The notes beneath the pieces are model-generated. The model worked only from the letters and a program-made list of their open reading frames with translations. It was not told where the DNA came from and did no database searches. 64,000 bases of DNA from Protonemura montana (Eukaryota; Arthropoda; Insecta; Plecoptera; Nemouridae), in assembly GCA_947568835.1 (NCBI GenBank), contig OX387603.1:5740701-5804700 (forward strand). The letters are read 5' to 3'. Positions 3,394 through 63,600 of this stretch are shown here, in pieces (positions within the stretch are counted from its first letter, which is position 1; each line of letters opens with the position of its first letter). The translations under genes were made by a program, and so were the position numbers.

Positions 3394-6300
3394 GTGAGTC
3401 GATGTTACGCCGCCATGTCCAATCAGAGCATAGTCACAAATTAATATCTCGTTTCTGTTATGTAGTAAATGGATTGGAGGTAAAAATCCATTCCAATTTT
3501 ATTAGCTTCATTTTACTTCAACAGTGACATAGCAATCTTTCTGCTGTAATCTTATTAACTAAAAATCAGCAATTTGAACAATGCTTATCAAAAAAATCCA
3601 AATCTGCTTATTGCCACCAAGTATAAAATAGAATTAGCTCCGTAAATCTATCCATCATATAACAAGAAGTGACTAAACTACAAAAGCGATGCCGTCAACA
3701 TCTCGTACGTTATCTCGGAAATATACTCCTAAACGGTAAAACTAGGAAAGTGAAAACTACATGTAACGCCATCTCTTGCCTCATCTCTAGGCCCGACTGC
3801 AGCGATGCGACTCTCCAGAGCGTCATCCTCGACCACAACTACTCGACGTGTCGCCGGCCCTCGTCGCCGCCCCCGCCACCTCCTGCCCCTGTCCCCGCGC
3901 CGCTGTCAACGTCTCCGTATGCTTACGGCTCTGCATTGCTGTCTCTGCGGTGCTTGCGCCGCGATGAGGATGCGGGCTCCGCGCTGAGCTCGGAGCAACG
4001 TGAGCCGGCTGGTGCTGACGGCGAGGAAACGGAGACTGCCCCCGAGGGGGACAACGATGACGACAGTGTCACACGGTGCATTTGGTGAGTCGGCCGGTGG
4101 GATTACATGCATTTCCTGTACAGGAATCCGCGGTGATCATGGCTTATCTTGGAGAGAGTCCTTCTTTGTCAAGAGCTAATAATAATGTTTTATTTGTTAA
4201 TGCTTCATGTGTTTACGGGAATTTCACTAACACGATTTACACCGTAGTTCTGTTTAAGAACTTGTCAATTGTGCTTGAAAGTTTTTAATAAATGATAGGA
4301 GTTAAAATTGTCACAATAATTTAAAAGCCCATCTGCTGTCATGCTATTCAATAAACTATCACTTTCAAACTGTTCTGACATGTCTTTTCTGCTTGCAGTG
4401 ACTTTGTCCATGATGACGGCTACATGATCTGCTGCGACAAATGCTTGTAAGTGTTCCTTTCTATTCCTTATACTTATTTCAACATATATGTCTGTACTTT
4501 GGCTCTCCATTTGAAGATGCTCACCCAGCACTTTTCGTAGTAATACTTGTATCATATTCATATTTGCCCTCAGCAAACTTTCCTTGCTACCAATTGCGTA
4601 GCCAAACAATACCAACTCCTTTCCCCCGTGGAGACAAACCTCTAAACCGCCCCGAATTGCAACCAATTTCGTCTACAGCGTTTGGCAGCACGTGGACTGC
4701 ATGGCCATCGACCGGCAGCGAATTCCGGATGACTACCTGTGCGAGCGTTGCCGGCCGCGGCCAGTGGACCGGGCGCGAGCCAGAGCGTTGCAGACACGCA
4801 AGCGAGAGGAGCTAACACGCTCCGACTCGAGCTCCGACTCAGAGCCGCCCCACCGGGCCCAACAACAGCACCGTGAGTCTGATTAAAGGTTTACCAAAAT
4901 AGGTGCGGTCTTGTGTACAGCCGTGTTTTGGTAGATCTTCACACTCTGTTGGATTTGGCTGCTAGCGTTACTTTGTAGGCGTGATCTTAATTCTAACCTC
5001 ACAACTTCTTTGTACGACCATGTTTTCTTTCAGTCATGTTAGAATATATTTGAAAGAAATCTAGATGAAGATATTTTTAGTATTCCAGGATAAGCACTAT
5101 AGTAATAATGGCTGACTCACAGCTTACCTGCAACATTCACTTATACAAGCTAAGAGGTTGGATGGCTGTGTATTGGCCATTATTACTAGCGATATTACTA
5201 GGGCTGGAAGCCCTTCAATCTACCACCAATCATTGGATGACCCCCCCCCCCCTCTCTTGCTTTGAAAATTTTCCATTATAAAGAAAACTTATCACATTAA
5301 AACATTTAGACTTTTAAGAATGCATTTTTAATGGTTTAACTTATCCGCATATCAACGGGTCCACAAATTCTTACATCTACTGATAAATATGAATGCTTTT
5401 CCCAAAGGCACGCTCGTAACCGCCGGTCCTTCAAAGCCTGCCGTTGCCAGCACTTCCGGTGCTGGCAAGAAGCGCGGTGCAACTGGCCGGCGCAAGTCGG
5501 AGCCGGTCGCTAGCAAGCGCATGCGCAGGGAGAGCCAGCGCGAGCCGGCGCAGGCCGCCCCTCTGCCGGCCAAGGAGCGCAGGCTCAGTGCAGCCAGTGC
5601 GGTCGCCGGCAAGAAAGGGACAAAGCGCGTGGTGCAGCGCAGAAAGGTGAGTTTTTGTGCCACAGCAAAAAAGAACTGCGTTACATTCATATAGTTGGTT
5701 CTCAGTAATTGTGTTATTTTCTGATAACTAAGTAGCTTCCATCTTTAATATCAATTATAGTTAATCCATGGTTTTGCTTTGTTCTAACTGCTTTTTAATC
5801 TTTAAAAGGGTAATTACAACAGATTCTGTTGCCTTTGTAAGATCAAAAAGCAATTTGACACATTAAAAAGGCAAATGGCCTGATCCTTACTGACTTCTTC
5901 GATCCTCCCGCAGAGCAAATCGATTGGCACTTGTCCATCTACCCCCGCCGCCGCCTCTGGTGACTCTGACGAGTGGTCACGCCCGGTGACGCAGCTGCGC
6001 CACTGGATTGACAACTACGAGGAGGCGGTCACCAACCACTACTCGCCCGAGCTTCGTGCCCGGGTCACCAGCCTCAAGGCTAACGGGCTCCACCACAACC
6101 CTGGGCCCAACGCACAGGGCACTCGATGCAGAGTGGCCATGGTCCAGCCTGGCGTCAAGGTAGGTCAACGTTTTGCAGATGTCAAAATCTTGGGTGTATA
6201 CAGGTTCCAAACCAATGTAGGGTCTTTAAGAACATCTAAATCTGATATCGTGCCCATTTAACTTGTTGCCTAAAATGGCGTTTATAAAAAAAGAATAGGT

Positions 6301-15300: not shown

Positions 15301-18300
15301 ATGTTAATTCAAATATGCACAGTATATTTCTCTGTCAATTTTTGACATTTTTTAATTAGACACATTGCCGGTAAACTCAATCTGAAGTGAACAATGTTTT
15401 GCAGGTGAATTTCACTTACTGCTTTACTAGAATTGACGCAAGAATACCAATTATGAAAGTATCTGCAAACCTCATCAAGGAAGAAAAACAAAATGCGTTC
15501 CTCTTTATTGCAATATCACAAGTGCAGTAATTTTTGACAGAGACATTAGGGCAGATAACAAACGTGATTTTGAAAACATGGTCAACCACACTGATTTTCA
15601 GTAACTTGTTGAAAACATGAGGCATAACTCAATACTAAATGCTCAATTCTGATTTGGTTGGTTTTGGTTTCTTGCAGACGGAAAGGAAGGGGACGAGCCA
15701 ACAGTGCAGCCAACCCGCTGCCTTCTCGGCGAACGAGACAGAGCTCGGAAAATGCCTCTTCAAACGAGGAGGAGGCGGGAGGAAAGGAGCGAAACATGGG
15801 ACCGCCCAACAACATAAATGCCAGCTACTTCCGGTAAGTACAGGACAAGGTCCATGGGAAACTAACTTCCAGTAGCAGGCTTTGTGCTGCTAATAAGTTT
15901 AACTAGACTAGACGCCAGTAATTCTTATGATATGCCCTGCGGCCTAAATGCCACAGAATATCACGAGGAAAAGGTAAAAGTGTTAAAAGAGTTGAAACAG
16001 TCAACAGTTTGAAAGAGCAAGGTTCCCTTAATGTCGCCTTATGTGTCACTTATGTGGCCAACTGTCCCCTTCAATGATAGAGTGTCTTGACCATAAAGGT
16101 TAAGTTGTAGCCCAGTCCATTGTGCAGCTGGCCAGGGGCAAGCTACTGAATCCTCAGTGGATTTTTATAGAAGCATGATTTTCAACCGTTCATTCATTAA
16201 CAGCCTACAACTCAGAGGACTCATCCTAAGATTCCAGTCGTCTTCACCCATTTTCAAGACCCGATTGCCTCTGAATTTCGTAATGCTAGTGAACACTTAA
16301 AAAAACAGCAAATACCATAGCAAACATTTCAGACAATTCTAGAATCATCTTTGGAGTTACGATTATGATGTAAAATTACATTAATCCGAGCACAGTCTAT
16401 TTTAAGTAATTTTCGTACTATTTCTTACACTTGGTTCAAGATCTAGGCATTTGGGGATCCATTCTAAAAGATAAAATTTTCTTTTTTGGAAAAATACTTC
16501 AATGTTTTAGAGGATGTTCATCTAATGTATCACTATTTTTTCTCTTCATTTAATTACTGTCAACGTCATTTGTACAGCCCTGCTCCGTATAGAAAGGCTC
16601 ACCGTCTGTCACAACTGTTGCAATTTAGCAATCCTTAAATTAGTTCCCTAAGAATAAGAATTATCGTAAGAGTCTGACGATTGCCCCCATTGCAGGCGCA
16701 AGGGGCGAGGCCGGCTACTAAGCACAGCGTCTGCTCCTGCACCGCGCCGTCGCACACGCTTCAACTCTGCGTACTCGGACTCGGAGGACTCGTGCGACGC
16801 GACGGGGCCGGCCGAGTGCGCTGGGTCGAGCGCAGCTGCCACCGCCGCCGGCATCTTGGTGGGCCTCACCGGGGCCGGGGCCGGGCAAGGGAATAACGGG
16901 CACTGCTACACTCCCCCACCCACGTTGGACAAGGTATGTGGTTGACAACTCATTATTTTTGCCTTGATGCGACGGGTAGTTTTTTTTAAATCAAGTCGAA
17001 ATCAAGCCTACATTACAATAATTTTCGAACGATTAGTTAAGTGAACTTTAATTGAATAACTTTATTTTGTCGTATCATTTGAACTCGTAACAGCAATGGT
17101 GAAATATACTGGCCAGGTGGTCATTATCAAAACAAAATAATAACCTTTCTGGCTTTAAAAATGCTAGGAGTGTAGGCGATTTAAATGAACAGACTAAAGA
17201 ATAAATTGAGGCAAATGTGAGCAGGGAAAAATGAGTGAGGGAACTTGTAAAATGGGAGCGAAATAAGTAAGTGAAAGAGGCAGATGTTAAGAGATGAAAG
17301 AGGAAAGGGCGGAATTACTGCAGAAGATGAAACATTTTACAATTAAATTTATTCTTTGATCTCTAAATCGATATACGATAAGGTGCCTTAGGCACTTAGC
17401 CTTTTTTAAAACATCAGTGATCCTGTTTAACCTCTCGTTACTTGGAAGAATCTAACACCTCACCCTGCGTGTTTTTTTTGACAGCGAGGGCCGATGGCTG
17501 GGGGTGGCGTAAACCCTACGCTTTTTGGCCCGGCTGCCCCCGTGGGCGTCGGAGTCGGGAACTCCGTGCCGCTGAGTTCGGCCTGCCTCCTCGTGGCAGC
17601 CGCAGTGGGACCGCTGGCGCCGGGATTCAAGTTCCCGAAGACCAAGAAAGGTGAGCGAATAAATGAGATAATGGACGAACACTGTTAGAAAAATAAACTA
17701 ATTATATTTTTAAACCATTCTCGAGTGGTGAGACTTAACTAACCGTGTCAGCAAAAAATGCATCAACATGTTTAGATTGTCTGCCAGGGCATCCTGTATT
17801 GCAGAGAGCTTTCTTATTTTACTGGGGGTATACCTGCATGTCGATATTAATTTTATTATACAGTTCTGACAAGGTTAGTTGGTCCAATCGTTATAGTATG
17901 AAAGAAGTAAAGATATGCCTATTGTCCCTTTATCATAGTCCCTTGAATACCGTTTCTGCACTTAGCCTCTATTGCAAGCAAATAACTTTGTGGTTCACCT
18001 AACCTGTCACTTGTGTTTGCCAGGCATGATGAACGAGTGGCTGAACAAGTCCCCGGACTTCCCTCCAACGCCCGCAGGGCTGGCCCTAGACGAGCCCGTG
18101 CGAGCAGAGCGTGGTCGCACCGCGAGTGCCGCAGGTCCGCGCGACCGTCCCGGGCCAACACGCGAGCCCGGTTCCGCCAAGAAGCGCTGGCTTAGGTGAG
18201 TGCCACACGACCGTACTCGCCACACATTTGGGTCTTCATCGTTTGTAAGACAATGACGCAGCAAGCTGCTCAAAGGTCTCCAGCAATGTTGGCTGAATGC

Positions 18301-21300
18301 TAAAAAATTTTTGAAAGTCTTAGTGAGTGGTTTTGTGGAAGGTTGTCTGAATGTACTTTTCGTGGAATGGTGAAATGCTGGAAGCTAGGGCTCAATTAGA
18401 TGAAAGAGGTAGATGAATCTAGTTTTGTGGTTAAGATTTAGTTTCATCATGTCCTTTGCTGTCCTTTACTTGTCCTGTATGTCCTTCATAATGTCCTTTA
18501 CTAGCCTGTATAAATCTAATCTTTACCGTTAAGGTTTGCAGACCTACCTGAAAAGAGTTGTATCAATTTTGACCATTTTGGGTTGAAGGTGGGTGAGGTT
18601 GCCAGGAAAGTAACAGTAGCATGCAGTGATCACTTTGTCTCTATCAATTTTGAGGTCTACACTGACTGTATTGTTTAAGCTCACCATCTTGACAAGTTGG
18701 GATGAGGATTAGGTCTGGAAAAAGCATTACGGGAACTGGAACACGAGCAAACAAATGAAGTTAACGAGTTTAATTTTTTGCGAGCGTTTCTAATTACTAC
18801 CGAATGGTCGTTACTTGTTGAATTGTTACCTTGGCTTACTATTTGGCTTGGCCAAAATATTTTCAAGAACTATTTAATTTTGTGCAAGTTTCATGAGTCA
18901 ACCATTTTTTCATGAAAATTTTTGTCAGTGTACAATCAGTTTGGCATCTCAAGGCCTAGATTTATTGCAGTTAATAGAGCTGAACTTAGCGTTTATGAGA
19001 ACTAAAATGCTGTGGTACCAGTATTCAATGTAAAAACATTAGGCTAGAAATCAAGTAACTTACTTCAAAGATCTTAAGCTTGAATTAACATCTTTTGCAT
19101 CAATACGGCTTGATATGCTCAAAGATTATGGATTTCTGATCTGAACTAAATAACGTTATCGATGAAAGGCTTACCGTTGACGAACACTGCCATGTATCTC
19201 TCTGTCCAGCCACCTTTAATGTCCCTAACCTGGCACAACCTGGCACCCGACCACATATCTTCCCGCTACTACATAGACCAGCCGGATGTCGCATTAGACA
19301 ATTCTGTGCCGTGGTTTTCCACCTCGTATAGCTTCGATACATGTTCGCGACCGTCCACCATTATTTTTGTGGTAGGAATTTGTCCTTTGAAGCCCAAGAC
19401 GGGACTGTCGTTGCTGTGAAGTGTGTTGTTAGATATTGTAAAACTATGTATCTTGAATTCGCAACTTGTCAATATATTAGAGGATGAACACATTATGTCG
19501 AGGCTGGAATTACTCTTGATACCAGCTTTTGTTGGTTGCATTGTGTAAGGTTTATAGGCAGCCTTTGTGCTGTAAAGAAACACGCAAATGAATCAAAAAC
19601 CAAATGTGAAAAAGATAAGTATGTTTGTCTATTTGAGGAGTCACACCCTGCTTTGGTTTTTCTTGTGACTAAATGATTGTTTCATTTCCAAGAGATAGGC
19701 AGAGTGGAATCATTAATATGCAATTAATTGCTTGCAGTTAGTGGTACATTTTTATTATACTCTTTAAGTGCAATCCAATTTCCTTACTAAAATGTCTGGC
19801 ACGGGCTTAGTTTTGTGCACGGACACTTCTCAATGGCATTTGCAATGGTATGGTGTGGTTATTTGCTTTAACTCCTTGGGAACCCTGAACCGAGCATTCT
19901 AAACTTCTCTGAGTGCTATGTTGGAACCACATACAGATGCAATGTTAGAAATATTTGATCTATTTTGATCCTTTTAACAGTAAATTTATACTTTTAAGTT
20001 TTAACCAAACAGATATGAAAGAAAATTTAACGGCTTATGAATAACTGATGTCAACTTTGGGAAATACCTTGTTTTGGTAGAGGTCCTTTTTTTATAATTT
20101 ACCTGCTGATAATTTCAAAACAATGGCAACCAGCGAGAATGCCACCCAAACGTTGTTTGTCATAGGAAACGTGTGAATGTTTCCCGAACGTCACGCTTTT
20201 ATTTCAAACACTTGCCATTGTCTTCTTTTTTGTAATAAAAATATCCGTTTTATTTTCAACTAAAAACCAAGGACGGCGTTTGGATTGTTGACTAAGAAAT
20301 TCTGATAGGCAATGGTGCCTTTGTCAAGAAAATGTGATCCCTTGTATAAAGTGTCTGTTATTGCTTGGGCAGTGAGCTTTGGCGTTATGAGGAAAACAAG
20401 CTAACCACGACATCCTGAATCACGACCAAATCCGACAATATCTATCACAAAATCTGCTATTAAGAACTCCTAAGCACATAATATTTAAGAGATTGCAGAA
20501 TTTGTTTTCTGCTATCTGTTTTCTTTTGCTTTGAGAGTATGACTTTGCGGAATAGTAAGGCAGTAGTAATCTAGATGCTAAGATTCTAGGCACACTTTAT
20601 GGGGAAAATATTTATTTTGTGTAAATCACTATGATTATTAATTTATGCATACATTTTATTGTAGCAAGATTGATACAGGCATTTAAGTAAATACAAATAT
20701 TGTTTTTATAAACATTAAAATCAGTAATTTTTTCCTAAGATTAAAAAAATACATAATCAAGTAGTTCTAGCAAAAACGTATTAATATATGTCATATGTCT
20801 ACTGCTAACCACATCCTTGTTTTAACATTCTGGACGATAATGCTTAATTTATTTTGTAATTTTGTTCAATGTGAATTAATGGCACAATTCACTGGTTAAC
20901 TTTTCAATACATATTTATAACCTCGATAATAATGTAAGGAAATACAAAAGAAATGCATATCCTGTTACTTGGATCACATCCAATTATTATCTTTTTATTC
21001 TATTAATACTATATTTTTTGCAAATTTAATTATAATTAATATATTAGCAAATTTGATTAATGCATAGCTTACTGGTGTGTTGTGTATTTCACACTATCAA
21101 TACTTTGAACGTTCGACTAGACATGAAGATATCTTTTGACACAACTCACTAGAAGCTGAGTTCAGCATAGATTGTTTCCTCGGTCACTGTGTACTTTGTC
21201 TCGTTGCTCGGGACTGCTGGCGTTCCCACTATCTCTGCATAGACAATTTCCTCTTCTGCGGGGTATTTGTTTGGCACCTCGATGTTTGATGCAGCGTTTG

Positions 21301-24300
21301 GCAGGGGCCATTCTGGTGTCTTGGCCAGTTCTTTTGCTGAAAATTACCAGAGCAATGAGAAGGCCCCTTGAAAGATTATAGACAAATTTTTACCATGCTT
21401 TTGTGTTATTATTATGCGTGCTACCTGCATGTTCTTGTGGTCTTGCAGTTTTAGCCACATTCAGTTCTTTCTGAGGCCATTCGGCTGTCGGCATTTCTTC
21501 GAAGTTGTTGTCTAATACATATCACAGTTTTATCAACATTTTAGTTAAAAAGTAAATATTATCAAAGACACTTGCAAAATAGTCGAGTACCTGTTGGCTT
21601 GAAGCAGCACTTGCGTGCCCATCGGGCGTAGATTATTACGGCCACAGTTCCTAGTGCCAGGATGACGCACGATGACACCAATAGTTCTGCTGGGACTTGG
21701 ATGTTATCGGGTGTGGGGTCTTTCTGCTGAGGACTTCCTGTAATCGCATTTGGAACGTATGTAAATGAGGTTGTGCTCTCTTCAATGGCCAACTCAGTAC
21801 TCAGTGTTGGTACTGAGTTGTGTGGTTGTGATTTCTAAAAGTAAGTGTAATAACAGAAAAATTCTGCATTTTTCGAGTGAGTAAAAATGATATTGGTGCT
21901 GAAGTTATTTCGATGTGTTATCAAGAAATCAACTTTGATTATTGCTTTTCTTGTCTCCTACCTACTCTGAAACAATTTCATAATTATTACCTATCTGTAA
22001 GAGTTTTTCTGTTTTTTTTGTCTCCGTCGTAAGATTTCCATAGGAGTTGATGTACCGACCGGTACATCGGAGGGTCGTCCCATTGTCCGCTGAAACCAGT
22101 GTCTTGAAAATGGTCTGCTTAATGATCTTTGTTTCCCATGGCCATGTCCATGAATCGGAGTTGTTTATTGTGTCTTTCACAGCCCATCCATGGGAGCTGG
22201 TGTTGAGCGTTTCATTTCCAACCGTCCAATCGATATTTGCGCTGTGTCTGCTCCCGTAGACACTACAGGTAGCATTAATTTTCTCTTTTTCATTGTAGGT
22301 ATATGTTCCGTTCTCAGCACCCTCTGCTACAGGAGGTAGCTCCAGGCATACGTTTGCTTGTTCTGTAACATCATTTCAGTGTATTGTATTGGAAATGCTT
22401 TGGTCTGCAGATTTAGCCAAAAAGAGAAAATTTTCTCTGAAACATTTTTAAATTAGGAAAGGACTGGAAAAATGGGCAACCGAACTAAGATACGAACCCG
22501 GGACCTCCCAATTGCCGGTCGGGTGCTCTTCCAAGTTGTTTCTCTGCATTGACTCATCGTGTCACAATCAATTAGAAACAGTTTGCTTTATACAACAAAC
22601 AAAATAATAATAACTGACTGGAAGACATCAATACAAACTATTTACAGCTAATTAAAATGATTATGAACAAAATTATGCATATTTTTTCTGCAGTTCTTGA
22701 ACATGTTGGCATGTTCAATGAACATATCGGCTGTACAGCGATACAATTTTTACATTTTCATATGATCATTCATTTGGCTTTCCTAACTTCCACTGCTCTT
22801 GCAACCTACCTTCCACTGCAAAAATTCTAATTGCAATGCAAATAATTTCATGAAATTTGCATTAGTTTTATTGGTTTTAACTTAACAATTAATTGTCAAT
22901 TAATTAAAAAATAATTATTGTTAATAATTATTTATAATAGTTATTTATTATACAGTAAATTAGTAATTTGTTATTATTAGACTCAAGCAAGCAAGCATCA
23001 GCCCTATATGCCTATATAAGAGCCCTTACATTTGGGAATTAGTTTGCAGTTTTAGTGCTCTGTTGGTAATAATACTGACATTAATGTGGCTGGGATGACA
23101 AGCTATAAAATCAACATAGACTCTCAACTCACTTTTAGCAATAATAATTTTCATGAAATGCCATGTGTTCTTTTTGCCGTTATTTTCATATGCTGCTTTG
23201 ACCCAAAGCGGCCCTTGTGTCGTTTCATTTCCGACAATCGCGAAAGTGCATGTGTTATTAGTCTCCAGACTTGCAATGTTCTGTAGTTTGTTCACACTCT
23301 CTTCGCCATCGAGCTCACACGGTCTAGTGAAATAGTTAGAAAACTTTAATTTTAACTTGATTTCAGCACTATTATTTGTGAACGACACTTCCATAATCAT
23401 GCCGTCTTCTTCATTGTTACTTGTAAAATCTGTTCTGTCTGAAAGTTTAAAGATAGGCAAAGTTATTAATATGCAACGTAAACAAAATGTCTCGAATAAC
23501 TCCGCATACTGCGGGCTGCATGCTGTACGATTTTTATTGAATTTCTTTTTAAACGATTGGGGGCTTCAAAATCTGTGTTGCATTAATGCAAACATGCGTT
23601 GGCAAATCAGTCTAGTTTGTTTTCATTTTGAACATGTTTTAGAACAAGTGTGGGCACTTGTGAGGTTAATCCGAGCCATATTCTAGGTTTACATTTGCCT
23701 TAAAGACCATGGTAGTGTAGTTTTAAAATTGAAATTAAATTGTTTTAAATTTAAGTAATGAGAAGAATCTTCACTAGTCCTTTGAGCGCAAAGGTGAAAT
23801 TTAATTGTGTGAAAAAAAATACGAGATATTATTTTCATAATAAAAGTAGCTACCACGTACGGCTTGAACTACAAGAAGTAGATGTAACCCATTTTTGTTG
23901 TAGAATCTCGATCAGTTTCTTGTCATATTTGAACTTAGGAATTAAAGGATGCTTAACTAGGTATTCATTCAATAAAATCGTCACTGTTTAAACTGCTTTT
24001 AACTTTGGCAATCAAATCCATATTTGGTGTACAAAAAAATTACAAAATCGACCATTCAAATTCATTACCAAACAAAATACAAAGGAGTGAACACTTACTA
24101 TCAACATATAATGCCATGTATCTCTCAGCCCAGTCTTTGTTTTCAATCAACGCTCGGCATCCAACCAAATATTTCCCCTTACGGCGTGGTGTAAGCTGGA
24201 TGCGACATTCATTCTTAGCTGATCCATTGAATTCAATTTTGTACCAGTCTGAAATTGTATCGGATTCATCGCCCTGTGCCGTTGCCATACTTGTTGAATT

Positions 24301-27300
24301 GCAGTTAAAAATAGACGATTCCCGTATCTGACCTTCGTGCTGAAAGCGCAACCGGAAATAGGATTCACTCAAAGTTTTGTTGGATCCACATGTGAGATTG
24401 ATAGTTGTGTTGGCTTTTATTGCAGCTTTCCTTGGATATATATGTAGATTTTCATTTCCTGCTGAAACTAAGATTAAAACATCTTATATTAGTCCATACA
24501 TTGCCAACAACTAAGTATTGGTAGATAAAAAAATATAATTCAATTCTCGTCCTTGCTTTTAAGGGAGAGTGTATCTATTGTGAGTTTTGACAGTTCTTAG
24601 GTTCTTAGCTTTTTTAATAATTTACCCCGTGTGTTTTAAACTTAACTCAGCCATAGCACCATGTTGACGGCACATGTTTCGCCCAATTTCAAATTCCCCA
24701 TCCAAATACACATTTTTCTCAAAAAAGTACCTAGAACAGGTATCTCCTCTGCTTTATGGCTAAGATTTGTGGAAGTGTCGAAACACTATATTATTAGAGA
24801 TCTCAAGTCACTTACTTTTTGTCAATCCACCAAGCATTACTGCCAGGCACCAAAAAGCTGACAGCATTGTTGTCCGATTTGATAGAAATTACACTTCTCT
24901 GTCAGATATCTGACATCATTTTGATCTGCATTTGTGATAACACAGCTGCATTTTTGCCCTTGTTATTGTGTTCCCAAACTTTATGTACGTCTAAAAAGGC
25001 CGGGGTTTTTGAAACAAACTTGCTTGACAGACAACACCCAAGTAACTGTAATTTTTCCTCTTGGAATTCCTGTTATCTAGCTATTTCCTGTTGAAAGAAA
25101 TAACCTGCGCAGGAAACGGGCATGCTGCCTTGTCGATATCAGAGGCTCCGATTTCGCTTTGAATGCCATATAAATGGTGTTTTCAAAAGTGAGAACATTT
25201 GTTAATAATAAGAACTATCTTTTATTGTCTTAACATCTATAAATAGGTACAGACATTTTATATTATGGCCAAAACCAATCAAAGCCGACCAGCCACGCCT
25301 GACAATCCGTATCTCCTGCATCTTTCATGCTCTGTTGTTGTCTTCCACCTCGAATTTCTCAGTGACCATCGTCCACAACTACTTCTCGTCCCACAAATTA
25401 TTTTTTTCCACTTCCTTCCAGTCAATATTTCTCTCCTCTAGATCACCTTTAACCAATCCACTCCATTTTGCTCTCGGTCTCCCCACTCTTCTTCGACTCC
25501 CAACCGATGCTTCAAATTCCCGTCTTAGAATTCAATTCTGCCAATTAATTACCAACTAATTCACCTTAATTCACTTCCAGAATTTAGATGCACTTGGTTA
25601 CACTCTTTTTTTAGATAAGTGTGAAAGTATGTAAGTTAGTAAGTAAATGAAATGATAGCGCTTAAAAAATATGTAGGTATGCAATAATATATATTTATTT
25701 ATTCATTTCAAACCCAGGACAATTACATAGTAACTGTTTAGGTTCCGTCAGTTGTCTAGCCAAGATGAACAGTAATATTTGCATAAGATGTAGATACATA
25801 TTTTTGATGATTATAGTTAGAAAATGAGAGAATAGCTATACAAATAGTATATGTGATTCTATGTGGGATTGGTCTTGGAGGATAGGGTGGTAACATGAAA
25901 ATAATGTTTCTAGTACATATTTGTTCAGTTTTTAGAAAAACCCATTATCTAGCACTTACAGTCTGAATTCAGGTTCAAGACCGCTTGGCTCTTATCCGAC
26001 CACCGTATCCTGTCTTTCAGGTCGTGGTAGATTCTTCTGGCAAGCAATTTCGTGGCGGCGACTAAATATATCCACAGATAAAACCTTATTTTGTTATTTT
26101 TCCTTATACTTTGTTTCCAACCACAACCTAAATATTGCAATAGCCAAGATATTTTTTTATTTAGAGTGTGGTAATTAGTAATTACACTTTATAAAAAGTG
26201 TTTAACATTTTAAAAATGTAATAACTTCAGTAATTAAATTTTTTGGGAAAAAATTAAGTGAACCAATCACATTCCCCAGGACTGTTTTAGTTAGAATTGT
26301 ATAACTCAACTTAACATACAATTCTGCAATTTAATTACAATGTGGTTGCGAAACGTCGTATGCTACCGCTGCTGGCACTACAAGGCACCGGGAAACTCTT
26401 GGAAGTCCTTCATTGTCTGCTGGTTGCAATGCATGGTGACTCTTACGTAAAAACAAAACAGTACGTTGCATCGATGCCCAGAGTACCTATCCTAACCGAA
26501 GAAAATGTCTCTGTCTAAAGTATTTAGATGCACGACAATTTGTCAAAAAACTGCGCTCTGAGTCGAAAATGTTATTGAGAGAGATTTAAATTGATTGTCA
26601 TTATTGGCTGCTGAGTGGACACTTAATGTAATCTTTCTATTTGTTTCTCTCAGGAGATTTCCTTGAATAGATCTCCATAAGTCCTTTTCAACATTGCTGA
26701 CTCAAATTAGTAGTTTAATTAGTGGAAGTACTATGGACCTTCCTTTGTCCTCTTGTTAGGAGAGTAGCAATACCGATCTTAGGTGACAACTTACTGATAG
26801 TTTATCGGCATAAGTGTACTGGAAATATTGCTTATTGCTCGACTTTTCCGTATTGCTATTTTCAAAAGCAATAAGATTATCCTATAACATTGAAATCCAA
26901 AAGTCTCCCTGCTGCCTGTCATGTTCCTGATCTCTTTTGATAAGAGTAATCTGTTTGTTAGATTGCAGCATTCCAGCTGAACCTTTTAGGTTTCACCAGC
27001 AAACTTGCATGATTAACAACACCCAAATTTATTTGGAGTCTAATCTTTATTCTTGGCTCTGTCTGTGTCTCTGATATCTGGCTATTTCCTGTCTCAGTAA
27101 ACAACTTTAATAGGAAACCAGTTCACAAACTTGCTGCACCGTCCTTAATTTCATGTCCACAGGTCGGTTTTGTTTTTAAATTTCAAAACATGTGACCTAA
27201 CCCCTACGTTTCCTCTTTGCAGGCAAGCAATCAGCGAGGAGTGCGGCGGCGACTCGCCCCCTGGAGATGCGGCTGCGCCACCCAAGAAGCGGCGAGTTCT

Positions 27301-61109: not shown

Positions 61110-63600
61110 TTTTTATTTATTTACTTTTTATTGTCCCTCTGATCCGAAGATATAAGACAGTCAAACAATCTCTTTACAGATATAAAAAAGCATATGAAAC
61201 AACAGATGACACTCACGAAGTAATTTTTTTACAAATCAGATTAAACTCGTCAGTAGAATAAAAACAGTGTTGCAACATGAATCGTTTTAAAGTACATTTA
61301 AATGAGTTAAAACTTGTAGTCTTTACAAAATCTGGTAACGCATTAAAAAATTTTCGACCAGCATACCTTGGTCCTTTGGTCAGTAAATTAAGATTGTGTT
61401 TAGGCAGTGGTAGGTCGTTCCTCTTTCTGATATTATGATGGGTTTGCACAGGGGTCAAATTATCAAGACAGTAATCAAACATGATGCAGCAGTAAATGTA
61501 AGTACAGGGAAGGGGCATGATTTAAAAATTTTTAAAGAGCGGTCGGCATGAATCCTTGTAGTAAATGACGCTGCATGGGTCGTAACTAGCTCGAGCCATG
61601 ATTCTTACGGCTTTCTTCTGTAGTTTGAAGATTCTTGACGCGCAGGATGAATGTCCCCACAGTATGATGCCGAATTGTATGTGCGAGTGCATGTGGGCAA
61701 AATAGACTAATTTAACCGTCTCAATATTAGCGACTTTCATAAGCCTCCTTATTAAATAGCAGCCCGATGCTATTTTAGGGGCGATATAATTCACGTGGCT
61801 TTCCCATTTCATATTGCTGGTCAGTATCACGCCCAGTCGTTTTATTTCGTAGACCTCTTTAATGGATGAGCCTTCTAGACGAATGAGTGGGCTGCTGAGG
61901 GGCGCTTTCCTGGAGGCTCTGAAGTGAATGAAGAAAGTTTTTTTAGGATTGAGAAAGAGGTCTTTGTTGTTGCTAAAAGTAGCAACTTCTCTGGCTGCTT
62001 GGATGGCTGTTTTGGAGACATCTGTCTTCTTGCTGATAACCTGAGAAATGTCATCCGCATACATCGTAATCTTGCCTGAGTTGGTTGCTTGAGGTAGAAA
62101 ATTGGTTAATATGATGAAAAACAGCGGCGAGAGCGTACAGCCTTGAGGTACACCTATATTTACGATTGTTTCTTCTGATTTATGAGTTACTGATTTTCCC
62201 CTAATGTAAACCATTCGTTTCCGATCTTTCAGGAAGGACTTTATCCAGTTGTTTGCAACTCCCGAGCTACCAAGTTTATCCAGCGTCTTCAAGAGAGTGA
62301 TATGATTCACTGTATCAAAGACTTTACTGTAATCGTACAGCAGACCCACGGTGTCTTCCTTTCTATCCAGGGCTTCTAGGACGTCCGAGACAAGATTAGA
62401 GAGTGCTGTTGTTGATGACCTATTTTTTAAGAAACCATGTTGCGACTTTGTTAGCAGCTCATTATCATGCAGGAATGACATCATCCTAGCCGCGAATGTC
62501 AGTTCCCATAATTTGGATAGAGAGGAAACAATCGAGCTTGGACGGTAGTTTTCCATGTTGCTTTTCTCTCCGCTTTTGTGGAGAGGAATTAATTTGCTGA
62601 TTTTCAGAGCTTCGGGAAAAAGGCCATTTGACAAGGATTCATTAATCATGTGCAAAATTGGTATCCTTATGTAGGGGCCCGCAATCTTCAGAATGTGGCC
62701 CGGGATTTCGTCTATTCCTGCAGACTTCTTTTTTCCTATTTTCATAAAAAGTTCAAAATATTCGTTGGATAGGAGAGGAGCCAGTGATATTACCTTCTTA
62801 TTCATGGAATTGTTCGTCGAACCAATCGTCCTCTTGTTCTGATCGTCATCTTGATCGTCATCTTGATTCGCCTGACCACCGCCGCCCTTCCTTGCGTTGA
62901 CCAGGTTGGTAACTGCCTCAGTAAAATATACATTGAATTTTTTTTGCCACAAGCGTTTGGCAGGTTAACACCTCATCTCTTTCCTTTAGAGTGATTTCCA
63001 CATTGGATTCCCTTTTTCCTGAGGTTCGATTTTTCTCGATGATCTTCCATGCAGCTTTGTGTTTGTTCGAAGCATTCGCAATTTCACGAGCATTTCTGTC
63101 TCTCTTAGCAGAGTCAAGAGCCGTGACATACTTCCGCTTTGACTTTTTGTATTTCTCAAATTCGACCACGTTAAACCCGGTACGTTTCATTTCATCATAG
63201 TGTTGATGCACTCGTAGAGCCTGTTCATATAGTTCGGGAGTGAGCCATGAGGGGTATCTACGGCTACCTGCTTTATGGTTGACTTTGACCAAAGGAAACG
63301 CATGATCAAAAGCACCCTTAAATGTACGAAAGAATACGTCATATTTATTGTCGATTGTATCCACGCTAAAAACACTGTCCCAGCAACATGTGCTAAGGTG
63401 CAACTTAAACGATTCAATATTTTTATCGCTGAAAATACGTCTCAAGAACGTCGTTTTGAGATTCCTTCTCTTTTGGCGTTTTACAGTGACACTGAAAATT
63501 AAACTACAGTGGTCTGAGAGATCCCAGTCAACAACCGCAGACGAAGTCTTTTCTAGTTCAATGCAATACAAATTCAGCGTTTTCCGTTTAAATGGCACTA
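61110..63600 (-). mobile_element. Non-LTR retrotransposon (jockey-like LINE), 5'-truncated and damaged
   Basis: Minus-strand ORF2 remnant. From 63598 it holds the end of the endonuclease domain (DWDLSDHCSLIFS), then a linker rich in Lys/Arg. From about 62800 it holds a reverse transcriptase with the fingers block KKKSAGIDEIPGHILK, GVPQGCTLSPLFFIIL and the catalytic YADDIS. The C-terminus continues with RLGVILTSNMKWESHV and YAGRKFFNALPDFV to about 61216. Two lesions disable it: a frameshift in an A8 tract near 62940, and an in-frame TAA at 61522-61524 after LFKNF. The 5' end is lost at about 63600. The 3' end is an A-rich AAATAAATAAAAAA tail near 61110. It is clearly a genomic parasite, recently inserted to judge by so few lesions. 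Confidence 0.88.

Follow-up and report, generated by a model that had tools for sequence, protein, structure and literature searches.

An immunoglobulin receptor gene with paired ITIM-type tyrosine motifs in the stonefly Protonemura montana, and its probably Fasciclin-3-like relatives

Paired-tyrosine inhibitory receptors of the immunoglobulin (Ig) type are best known from vertebrates, where Siglec, KIR, CEACAM and PD-1 have tails with a pair of tyrosine motifs spaced by some 20-30 residues. A gene on the minus strand of a 64,000-nt stretch of Protonemura montana contig OX387603.1 (the window, in which all coordinates given without a contig label are positions) raises the question of whether an arthropod encodes a receptor of this kind, to which family it belongs, and what its tail may do. 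An earlier note, made from the letters of the window, had read this gene (21149..24867), nested in antisense within an intron, as encoding an Ig receptor that has one membrane span and a pair of immunoreceptor tyrosine-based inhibitory motifs (ITIMs), and the gene model described here supports that reading.

Gene model and tail motifs of the receptor

The receptor gene comprised seven exons with GT/AG borders and every junction in phase 1, and its frame stayed open across the 3.7 kb that they span (Table 1). These borders and frames bear out the seven-exon minus-strand structure proposed earlier, with two corrections: the translation had 529 residues instead of 531, and the tail tyrosines were Y500 and Y524 instead of Tyr502 and Tyr526. 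The protein possessed a hydrophobic N-terminus, a single transmembrane span and 16 extracellular N-glycosylation sequons, and candidate poly(A) signals lay 119, 150 and 296 bases past the stop codon. Taken from the genomic sequence alone, the gene model is well supported.

The tail contained IVYAEI and TIYAEL, whose tyrosines were separated by 24 residues, as the earlier note had stated. IVYAEI matched the ITIM pattern [SIVL]xYxx[ILV] and was kept as VVYAEI in one paralogue of the same genome (C1b, described below). With the motif defined more loosely as [SIVLT]xYxx[ILV], two or more occurrences came up in 0.59% of cases when the 101-residue window tail was shuffled 200,000 times, and a motif pair in 0.11% of shuffles of the C1b tail; the tail of a third gene, C12a, had just one motif by this definition. 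The spacing between the two tyrosine motifs was 24 residues in the window receptor, 23 in C1b and 26 in C12a, and a glutamate stood at +2 in 6/6 motifs of the three genes. The hexamer TKYTVT between the two window motifs had been likened earlier to an immunoreceptor tyrosine-based switch motif. This candidate was rejected, as the T at +3 does not fit TxYxx[VI] and C1b has an Arg in place of that Tyr (TKRSVL).

A probably Fasciclin-3-like family in the same genome

The genome (34 contigs, 258,480,905 bases) was searched for relatives, the numbers of matches counting exons and not genes. At E≤10 the receptor protein matched in 55 places, seven of which were its own exons and one an adjoining relic. 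The D3 exon of another family member gave 30 matches on 6 contigs, and a D1 exon 55 matches on 11 contigs, both at E≤0.01. Complete models were obtained for C1b (L041, C1 29.64 Mb), which encoded 550 amino acids (aa) in seven phase-1 exons as in the window receptor, and for C12a (L043, C12 6.08 Mb), whose 510-aa product has D1 and D2 encoded by a single exon, in a model that omits a small exon present twice in its intron.

Between the window receptor and C1b, identities were low in the Ig exons (D1 32/121, D2 18/90, D3 43/103, or 20-42%) and in exon 5 (24/72), the segment borders being approximate in both cases, and reached 2/15 in exon 6. Exon 7 was the best-conserved part, with 29/54 identical residues, and within it the motif residues were more often identical than the rest of the exon (10/12 and 19/42; Fisher p = 0.024, a value drawn from this single gene pair). 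The C1b tail carried VVYAEI and TTYAEL, and both motifs, whose conservation the earlier note had treated as decisive, thus survived in this within-genome comparison despite the diverged Ig exons. Searched against the genome at E≤10, the window tail exon found only itself and C1b (2/2 matches). Beyond its own locus, the C12a tail gave a single match, at E 1.36.

The 3' parts of 13 of the 14 family loci beyond the window were examined (L055 being left out). The C12a tail possessed VQYAEV and CVYAEV plus NPYEEL. Two loci combined one canonical ITIM with another YxxV (L048, VEYSEV and NPYEEV; L050, VIYDEI and RVYQEV), and 3/13 had YxxV/I motifs of a non-ITIM type (L039/L047, PQYEEI; L042, MHYEDV; L052, HIYDDV). 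No tail was recognised in the fetched stretch of L044, L049 and L051 (3/13), and L053 and L054 (2/13) continued into sushi and protease exons instead of a tail. A scan of open frames for a transmembrane span and tyrosine motifs yielded the tails of C12a, L048, L050, L052, L042 and L039/L047, with exon borders partly checked, and because all tails other than those of C1b and C1a came from this kind of scan, the list is biased toward motif-bearing ones.

Some relatives showed signs of decay, so they bear on whether the window gene is itself a decaying or non-expressed duplicate, its open frame being a recent relic of a duplicating family. The neighbouring copy at 18.5-20.2 kb is broken, C1a has lost its tail, and the acceptor of exon 5 in the window gene is weak. 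Set against these are the seven open, in-phase exons, a tail exon more alike to that of C1b than the Ig exons are, and the poly(A) signals after the stop, and we regard a relic as very unlikely. In C1a (L040, C1 28.92 Mb), which is near-identical to C1b, the exon-6 acceptor appeared by eye to be lost, and the ectodomain exons were open. The D2 exons of C1a and C1b differed by 19 nonsynonymous and 2 synonymous changes; positive selection is not claimed, the Fisher p values being 0.27 for D2 and 0.14 for D1+D2. At two other loci, L042 (C12 5.6 Mb) and L043, the D3 exons were 97% identical and the transmembrane span and tail of L042 differed, without a canonical ITIM; since its D2 exon is truncated, the L042 copy may be broken, and a paired-receptor reading of C12a and L042 enters only into the broad, improbable proposal made further below. 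An intron of the C11 member L039 held a tandem array at about 4838-6103, open over 422 codons with the repeat LGAMVVLVSTVLLTVIPGS, which is probably a minisatellite.

Domain D3 of the window receptor matched the Pfam family C2-set_2 at E 0.005 (17.3 bits, under the 21-bit cut-off), and the same profile scored over the cut-off in D3 of C1b (37.3 bits) and of L053 (29.6 bits); D1 and D2 of the window receptor had no Pfam match. An alignment of ten family D1/D2-type domains showed C24, G63, C85 and G95 to be invariant, including two cysteines, with a third cysteine in 9/10 and the motif G-x-G-L-x-x-G-x-C-G in 7/10. The earlier note could assign the receptor to no named family. Here, profiles of the family Ig exons, used as queries in place of the window protein alone, matched an unverified partial Drosophila Fasciclin-3 (Fas3) sequence, not a database record, domain by domain: the D1 profile matched the first Ig domain at E 1e-7 and the D3 profile the second at E 1.2e-10 (single-comparison E values), and each profile matched only its own partner domain. 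Eight I-set stretches of the same genome, used as controls, gave E values of 0.0025-0.73 with the D1 profile and 0.074-0.88 with the D3 profile. Because the Fas3 sequence was unverified, these matches are a strong lead and not a proof that the receptor family is related to Fasciclin-3. The family differs from Fas3 in an extra D1-type domain between the two matched domains, in its ITIM-type tail and in its large number of genes.

Among solved structures, the family profile matched best to CADM4 and CD200 receptor 4, both through D3 (E 0.0048 and 0.0099), and to an antibody light chain (E 0.0095), whereas Beat-Vc came in at E 0.8; a further search of solved structures returned 49 rows, mostly antibody chains, with a best E of 0.016. 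Membership in the Siglec, KIR or SLAM families was rejected, as no such ectodomain match appeared in Pfam or, by sequence, in solved structures. The likeness to these receptors suggested earlier is supported for the tail only, and the same is true of CEACAM and PD-1, where the motif spacing is alike and no ectodomain sequence matched. Alpha_GJ also exceeded its Pfam cut-off in C1b (26.1 bits, cut-off 21), where the stalk is rich in Ser, Thr and Pro, and this was taken as a match of composition. In the protein database, the single receptor sequence had no match at E≤10 among 4821 candidates and a four-sequence family alignment none at E≤1 among 5313 candidates, which is no proof of uniqueness because the collection is suspected to be poor in animal proteins. 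Among viral contigs, 3 pattern matches were obtained and none was confirmed.

A possible phosphatase partner and competing explanations

A candidate partner for the tail was present on the same genome: exon matches to SH2, SH2 and Y_phosphatase lay in the order of SHP-2/Corkscrew on one strand at C2:26,466,915-26,480,569. The tyrosine spacing of 23-26 residues in three genes would suit a tandem-SH2 partner. The receptor is read as recruiting a phosphatase because of these exons, the precedent of Corkscrew and Draper-II (discussed below) and this spacing. Whether the gene is a functional type I Fasciclin-3-like Ig receptor of an expanded, fast-diverging family in a pancrustacean, whose tail recruits an SHP-2/Corkscrew-type phosphatase, is in our judgement an even call. 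If so, the three Ig domains would bind a ligand at the cell surface, and on engagement a Src-type kinase would phosphorylate Y500 and Y524. The 24-residue spacing would let the tandem SH2 domains of an SHP-2/Corkscrew-type phosphatase bind, and the bound enzyme may damp or retune signalling by neighbouring receptors. Transcription, phosphorylation, phosphatase binding, inhibition, a ligand and use in haemocytes or immune cells are all what we infer from the gene, and the function proposed is a well-founded guess.

The tail motifs also admit a different use. The receptor could be an adhesion molecule of the Fasciclin-3 kind, with its YxxI/L motifs acting as endocytic sorting signals or as sites for other SH2 adaptors and with no inhibitory or immune role, which is the main rival and a serious, if rather unlikely, one. 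The Fas3-like Ig exons of the family are consistent with it, as are the fit of YAEI and YAEL to YxxPhi sorting signals and the NPxY-like and YxxPhi motifs of other family tails (NPAYEGL, NPYEEL, NPYEEV). For sorting, however, motifs do not have to be paired at a set distance; the three genes nevertheless had spacings of 24, 23 and 26, and the glutamate at +2 was kept in all of their motifs. The same paired YxE[VIL] motifs might instead make an activating or bidirectional receptor, by recruiting Src-type or Shark/Syk-type kinases, an adaptor or PI3K, or through an SHP-2-type enzyme that acts positively. In favour of this, SHP-2/Corkscrew acts positively in a number of receptor pathways, indeed in many, and 35 SH2 exon matches were obtained in the genome; against it, the two tyrosines of an immunoreceptor tyrosine-based activation motif (ITAM) are closer together than those of ITIM pairs, so that the 23-26 spacing and the -2 residues fit an ITIM pair better, and we consider an activating receptor distinctly unlikely.

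Several observations weigh against an inhibitory receptor that recruits a phosphatase. The case comes from the DNA of one genome of one species, and two of its comparisons carry the limits given above (the single gene pair behind the Fisher test, and the unverified Fas3 sequence with family profiles as queries). The phosphatase region consists of exon matches and not of an assembled gene, and YxxI/YxxL motifs could serve in sorting. Six-frame translation of the 64-kb window yielded 9 motif pairs 10-40 residues apart, 8 of them unrelated to the receptor; because of these, the tyrosine pair alone proves little, and therefore the gene model and the C1b paralogue carry the weight. With the -2 residue restricted to S/I/V/L, IVYAEI alone counts in the window tail, and likewise a single motif in the C1b tail, since TIYAEL and TTYAEL carry T at -2. 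Among the 13 other loci, both motifs were kept in the window form in one (C1b) and two YAEV motifs occurred in one (C12a), tails varying widely, and in C1a the codon for the tyrosine of the first ITIM was, as judged by eye, a stop. Domain D1 of the window receptor possessed neither the third family cysteine nor the GxGLxxGxCG motif. Exon 5 formed the weak junction: starting it at 21834, behind the acceptor that looks best (...cttttag), puts it out of frame, and for this reason the exon was modelled from 21812, at an AG 22 bases further on. Both models start exon 5 at VPT (VPTLSTE in the window, VPTPSAV in C1b), which is weak support because several further candidate acceptors would also be in frame in C1b and a global alignment leaves both stretches unpaired.

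Genomic setting, known receptors and wider meaning

The receptor gene lay antisense inside a plus-strand intron (Table 1). Upstream on the same strand, in the 4.6-7.7 kb region and at least 10 kb from the intron, one exon scored 26.2 bits for SET (cut-off 22.4) and another gave a sub-threshold PHD finger match; the two probably belong to one PHD/SET gene, which we take to be KMT2E/UpSET-like. From strand and order, the host intron is probably part of this gene. Of the earlier claim of an intron in a chromatin gene, the intron thus stands by its borders and joining frames, and the identity of the gene is plausible.

Table 1. Positions of the receptor exons and motifs, of the host intron and adjoining copy, and of the candidate phosphatase exons.
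Feature	Position	Strand	Remarks
Exon 1	24816..24867	-	Start codon and signal peptide; donor gtaagt, phase 1; hydrophobic N-terminus
Exon 2	24099..24461	-	Ig-type domain D1, residues 18-138
Exon 3	23133..23438	-	Divergent Ig-like domain D2, residues 139-240; alignable with paralogue D2 exons
Exon 4	21991..22362	-	Ig domain D3, residues 241-364, C2-set_2 type, WxWPW motif
Exon 5	21591..21812	-	Stalk, transmembrane span at about residues 406-428 (hydropathy), juxtamembrane; weak acceptor at 21813-21814
Exon 6	21425..21511	-	Cytoplasmic linker, residues 439-467, not conserved
Exon 7	21149..21336	-	Cytoplasmic tail bearing the two motifs; stop codon
IVYAEI, ITIM, Y500	21230..21247	-	VVYAEI in C1b
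TIYAEL, ITIM-like, T at -2, Y524	21158..21175	-	TTYAEL in C1b
Candidate poly(A) signals ATTAAA and AATAAA	20994..21030	-	3' of the receptor stop
Host intron, 9,027 bp	18196..27222	+	GT/AG borders; flanking plus-strand frames join in phase
Decayed receptor-type copy	18537..20163	-	Signal-peptide-like exon still open, D1 exon with stops, D2-like fragment (by eye)
SH2 exon match, two pieces	C2:26466915-26467264	same strand as next two	Profile match
SH2 exon match	C2:26474673-26474840	same strand	Profile match
Y_phosphatase, three pieces covering part of the profile	C2:26478638-26480569	same strand	Profile match

The D1 exon of the decayed copy was matched by the receptor protein at G000 C2:5759870-5760268 (E 0.0747) with 2 TAG codons, and neither a transmembrane span nor a tail was recognised in this copy. 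Elsewhere in the window, the plus strand encoded CoA-transferase exons (PF01144; 36.5-42 kb), presumably of an OXCT1-like gene, and a RING-between-RING gene with an IBR domain (44-49 kb), presumably ARIH2-like. A reverse transcriptase frame of 480 codons (61525-62964, minus; PF00078, 95.4 bits) is assumed to be of the non-LTR type. An Rfam scan of the window gave no match at the gathering score.

On the mitochondrial contig C34, COX1 was open under code 5, and the frames on one strand are taken to be ND2, COX1, COX2 and ATP6. Between COX1 and COX2, a stretch with a cloverleaf fold and an anticodon loop containing TAA was read by eye as tRNA-Leu(UUR), whose position between these genes is a pancrustacean order; it was absent from the ARAGORN output obtained with the bacterial code. 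Code and gene order together point to Pancrustacea, probably to a hexapod or a crustacean. COX1 copies were also found in a chromosome contig (G000 C4:5760925-5762262 and C4:5776811-5777755), one scoring equal to C34, and represent either a nuclear mitochondrial insertion or an assembly error.

Two known arthropod proteins invite comparison with the receptor: Draper, which is not an Ig receptor, and Dscam, a very long protein of Ig and fibronectin type III domains. The ITIM of Drosophila Draper-II is reported to be bound by Corkscrew, the SHP-2 orthologue (PMC9008705, PMC8092387), which provides an arthropod ITIM precedent, this ITIM being confined to one splice form. Daphnia Dscam, like the window receptor, is an arthropod Ig receptor that can carry an ITIM, its tail including or excluding the motif, and shrimp and crab Dscam are reported there without an ITIM (PMC6851185); the ectodomains were compared by description only. 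The Botryllus FcoR proteins are described as Ig-bearing type I receptors, 520-610 aa long, whose tails carry ITIMs or hemITAMs (PMC12065747), and resemble the window receptor in size, tail and multigene organisation; unlike it, they have a sushi domain and sit in a chordate allorecognition locus (comparison by description only). The same source cites ITIM/ITAM motifs in the Hydractinia Alr candidate allorecognition genes, which share ITIM-type motifs and differ in belonging to cnidarian allorecognition, again by description only. Further cases are the ITAM of oyster CgIgIT2 (PMC11999971) and the amphioxus ITIM-type leucine-rich-repeat receptor BbLcLRR (PMC8211107). Going by these sources, invertebrate ITIM receptors, Ig-type included, are already known, and the earlier description of such architecture as poorly described in invertebrates was too strong in view of FcoR, Alr, Draper-II/Corkscrew and Daphnia Dscam. 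A Fasciclin-3-like ITIM family in arthropods was not found in the open-licence literature, where fasciclin-3 and ITIM were jointly searched only narrowly.

Members of another type, L053 (C8:117500-124600, minus) and L054 (C14:664800-671000, plus), had three Ig exons followed by sushi and trypsin exons on the same strand. The sushi family PF00084 scored 21.9 and 22.0 bits in L053 and L054 (cut-off 20.7), and trypsin PF00089 scored 19.5, 30.9 and 42.1 bits in L053 and 31.9 in L054 (cut-off 20.6). Protease motifs were recognised in both (AAHC, ESDI and GGDSGGG in L053; GGYSGGG in L054), and L053 had candidate phase-1 borders for D1-D3, the sushi exon and the first protease exon. This type looks like a secreted Ig-Ig-Ig-sushi-serine protease, and may possibly be present in many copies, judging from a class of D1 frames of about 160 aa in the genome search. 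A broader proposal, to which we give only a small probability, is that a Fasciclin-3-type adhesion module diversified in an arthropod into a repertoire that operates in the manner of the paired-receptor families of vertebrates. The window receptor, C1b and C12a would supply the long ITIM tails; near-identical ectodomains would lose the tail precisely at the ITIM in C1a, or carry a different one in the C12 5.6-Mb copy; and soluble members would combine the three Ig domains with a sushi domain and a trypsin-like protease.

In the literature consulted, paired-tyrosine Ig receptors outside vertebrates are otherwise reported from colonial animals with allorecognition. If the receptor functions as proposed, ITIM pairs conserved in a Fasciclin-3-like multigene family of a pancrustacean would extend Ig-ITIM-phosphatase control to arthropods, a group that offers genetics and the Corkscrew/ITIM precedent, and the question of an independent origin would become directly testable.

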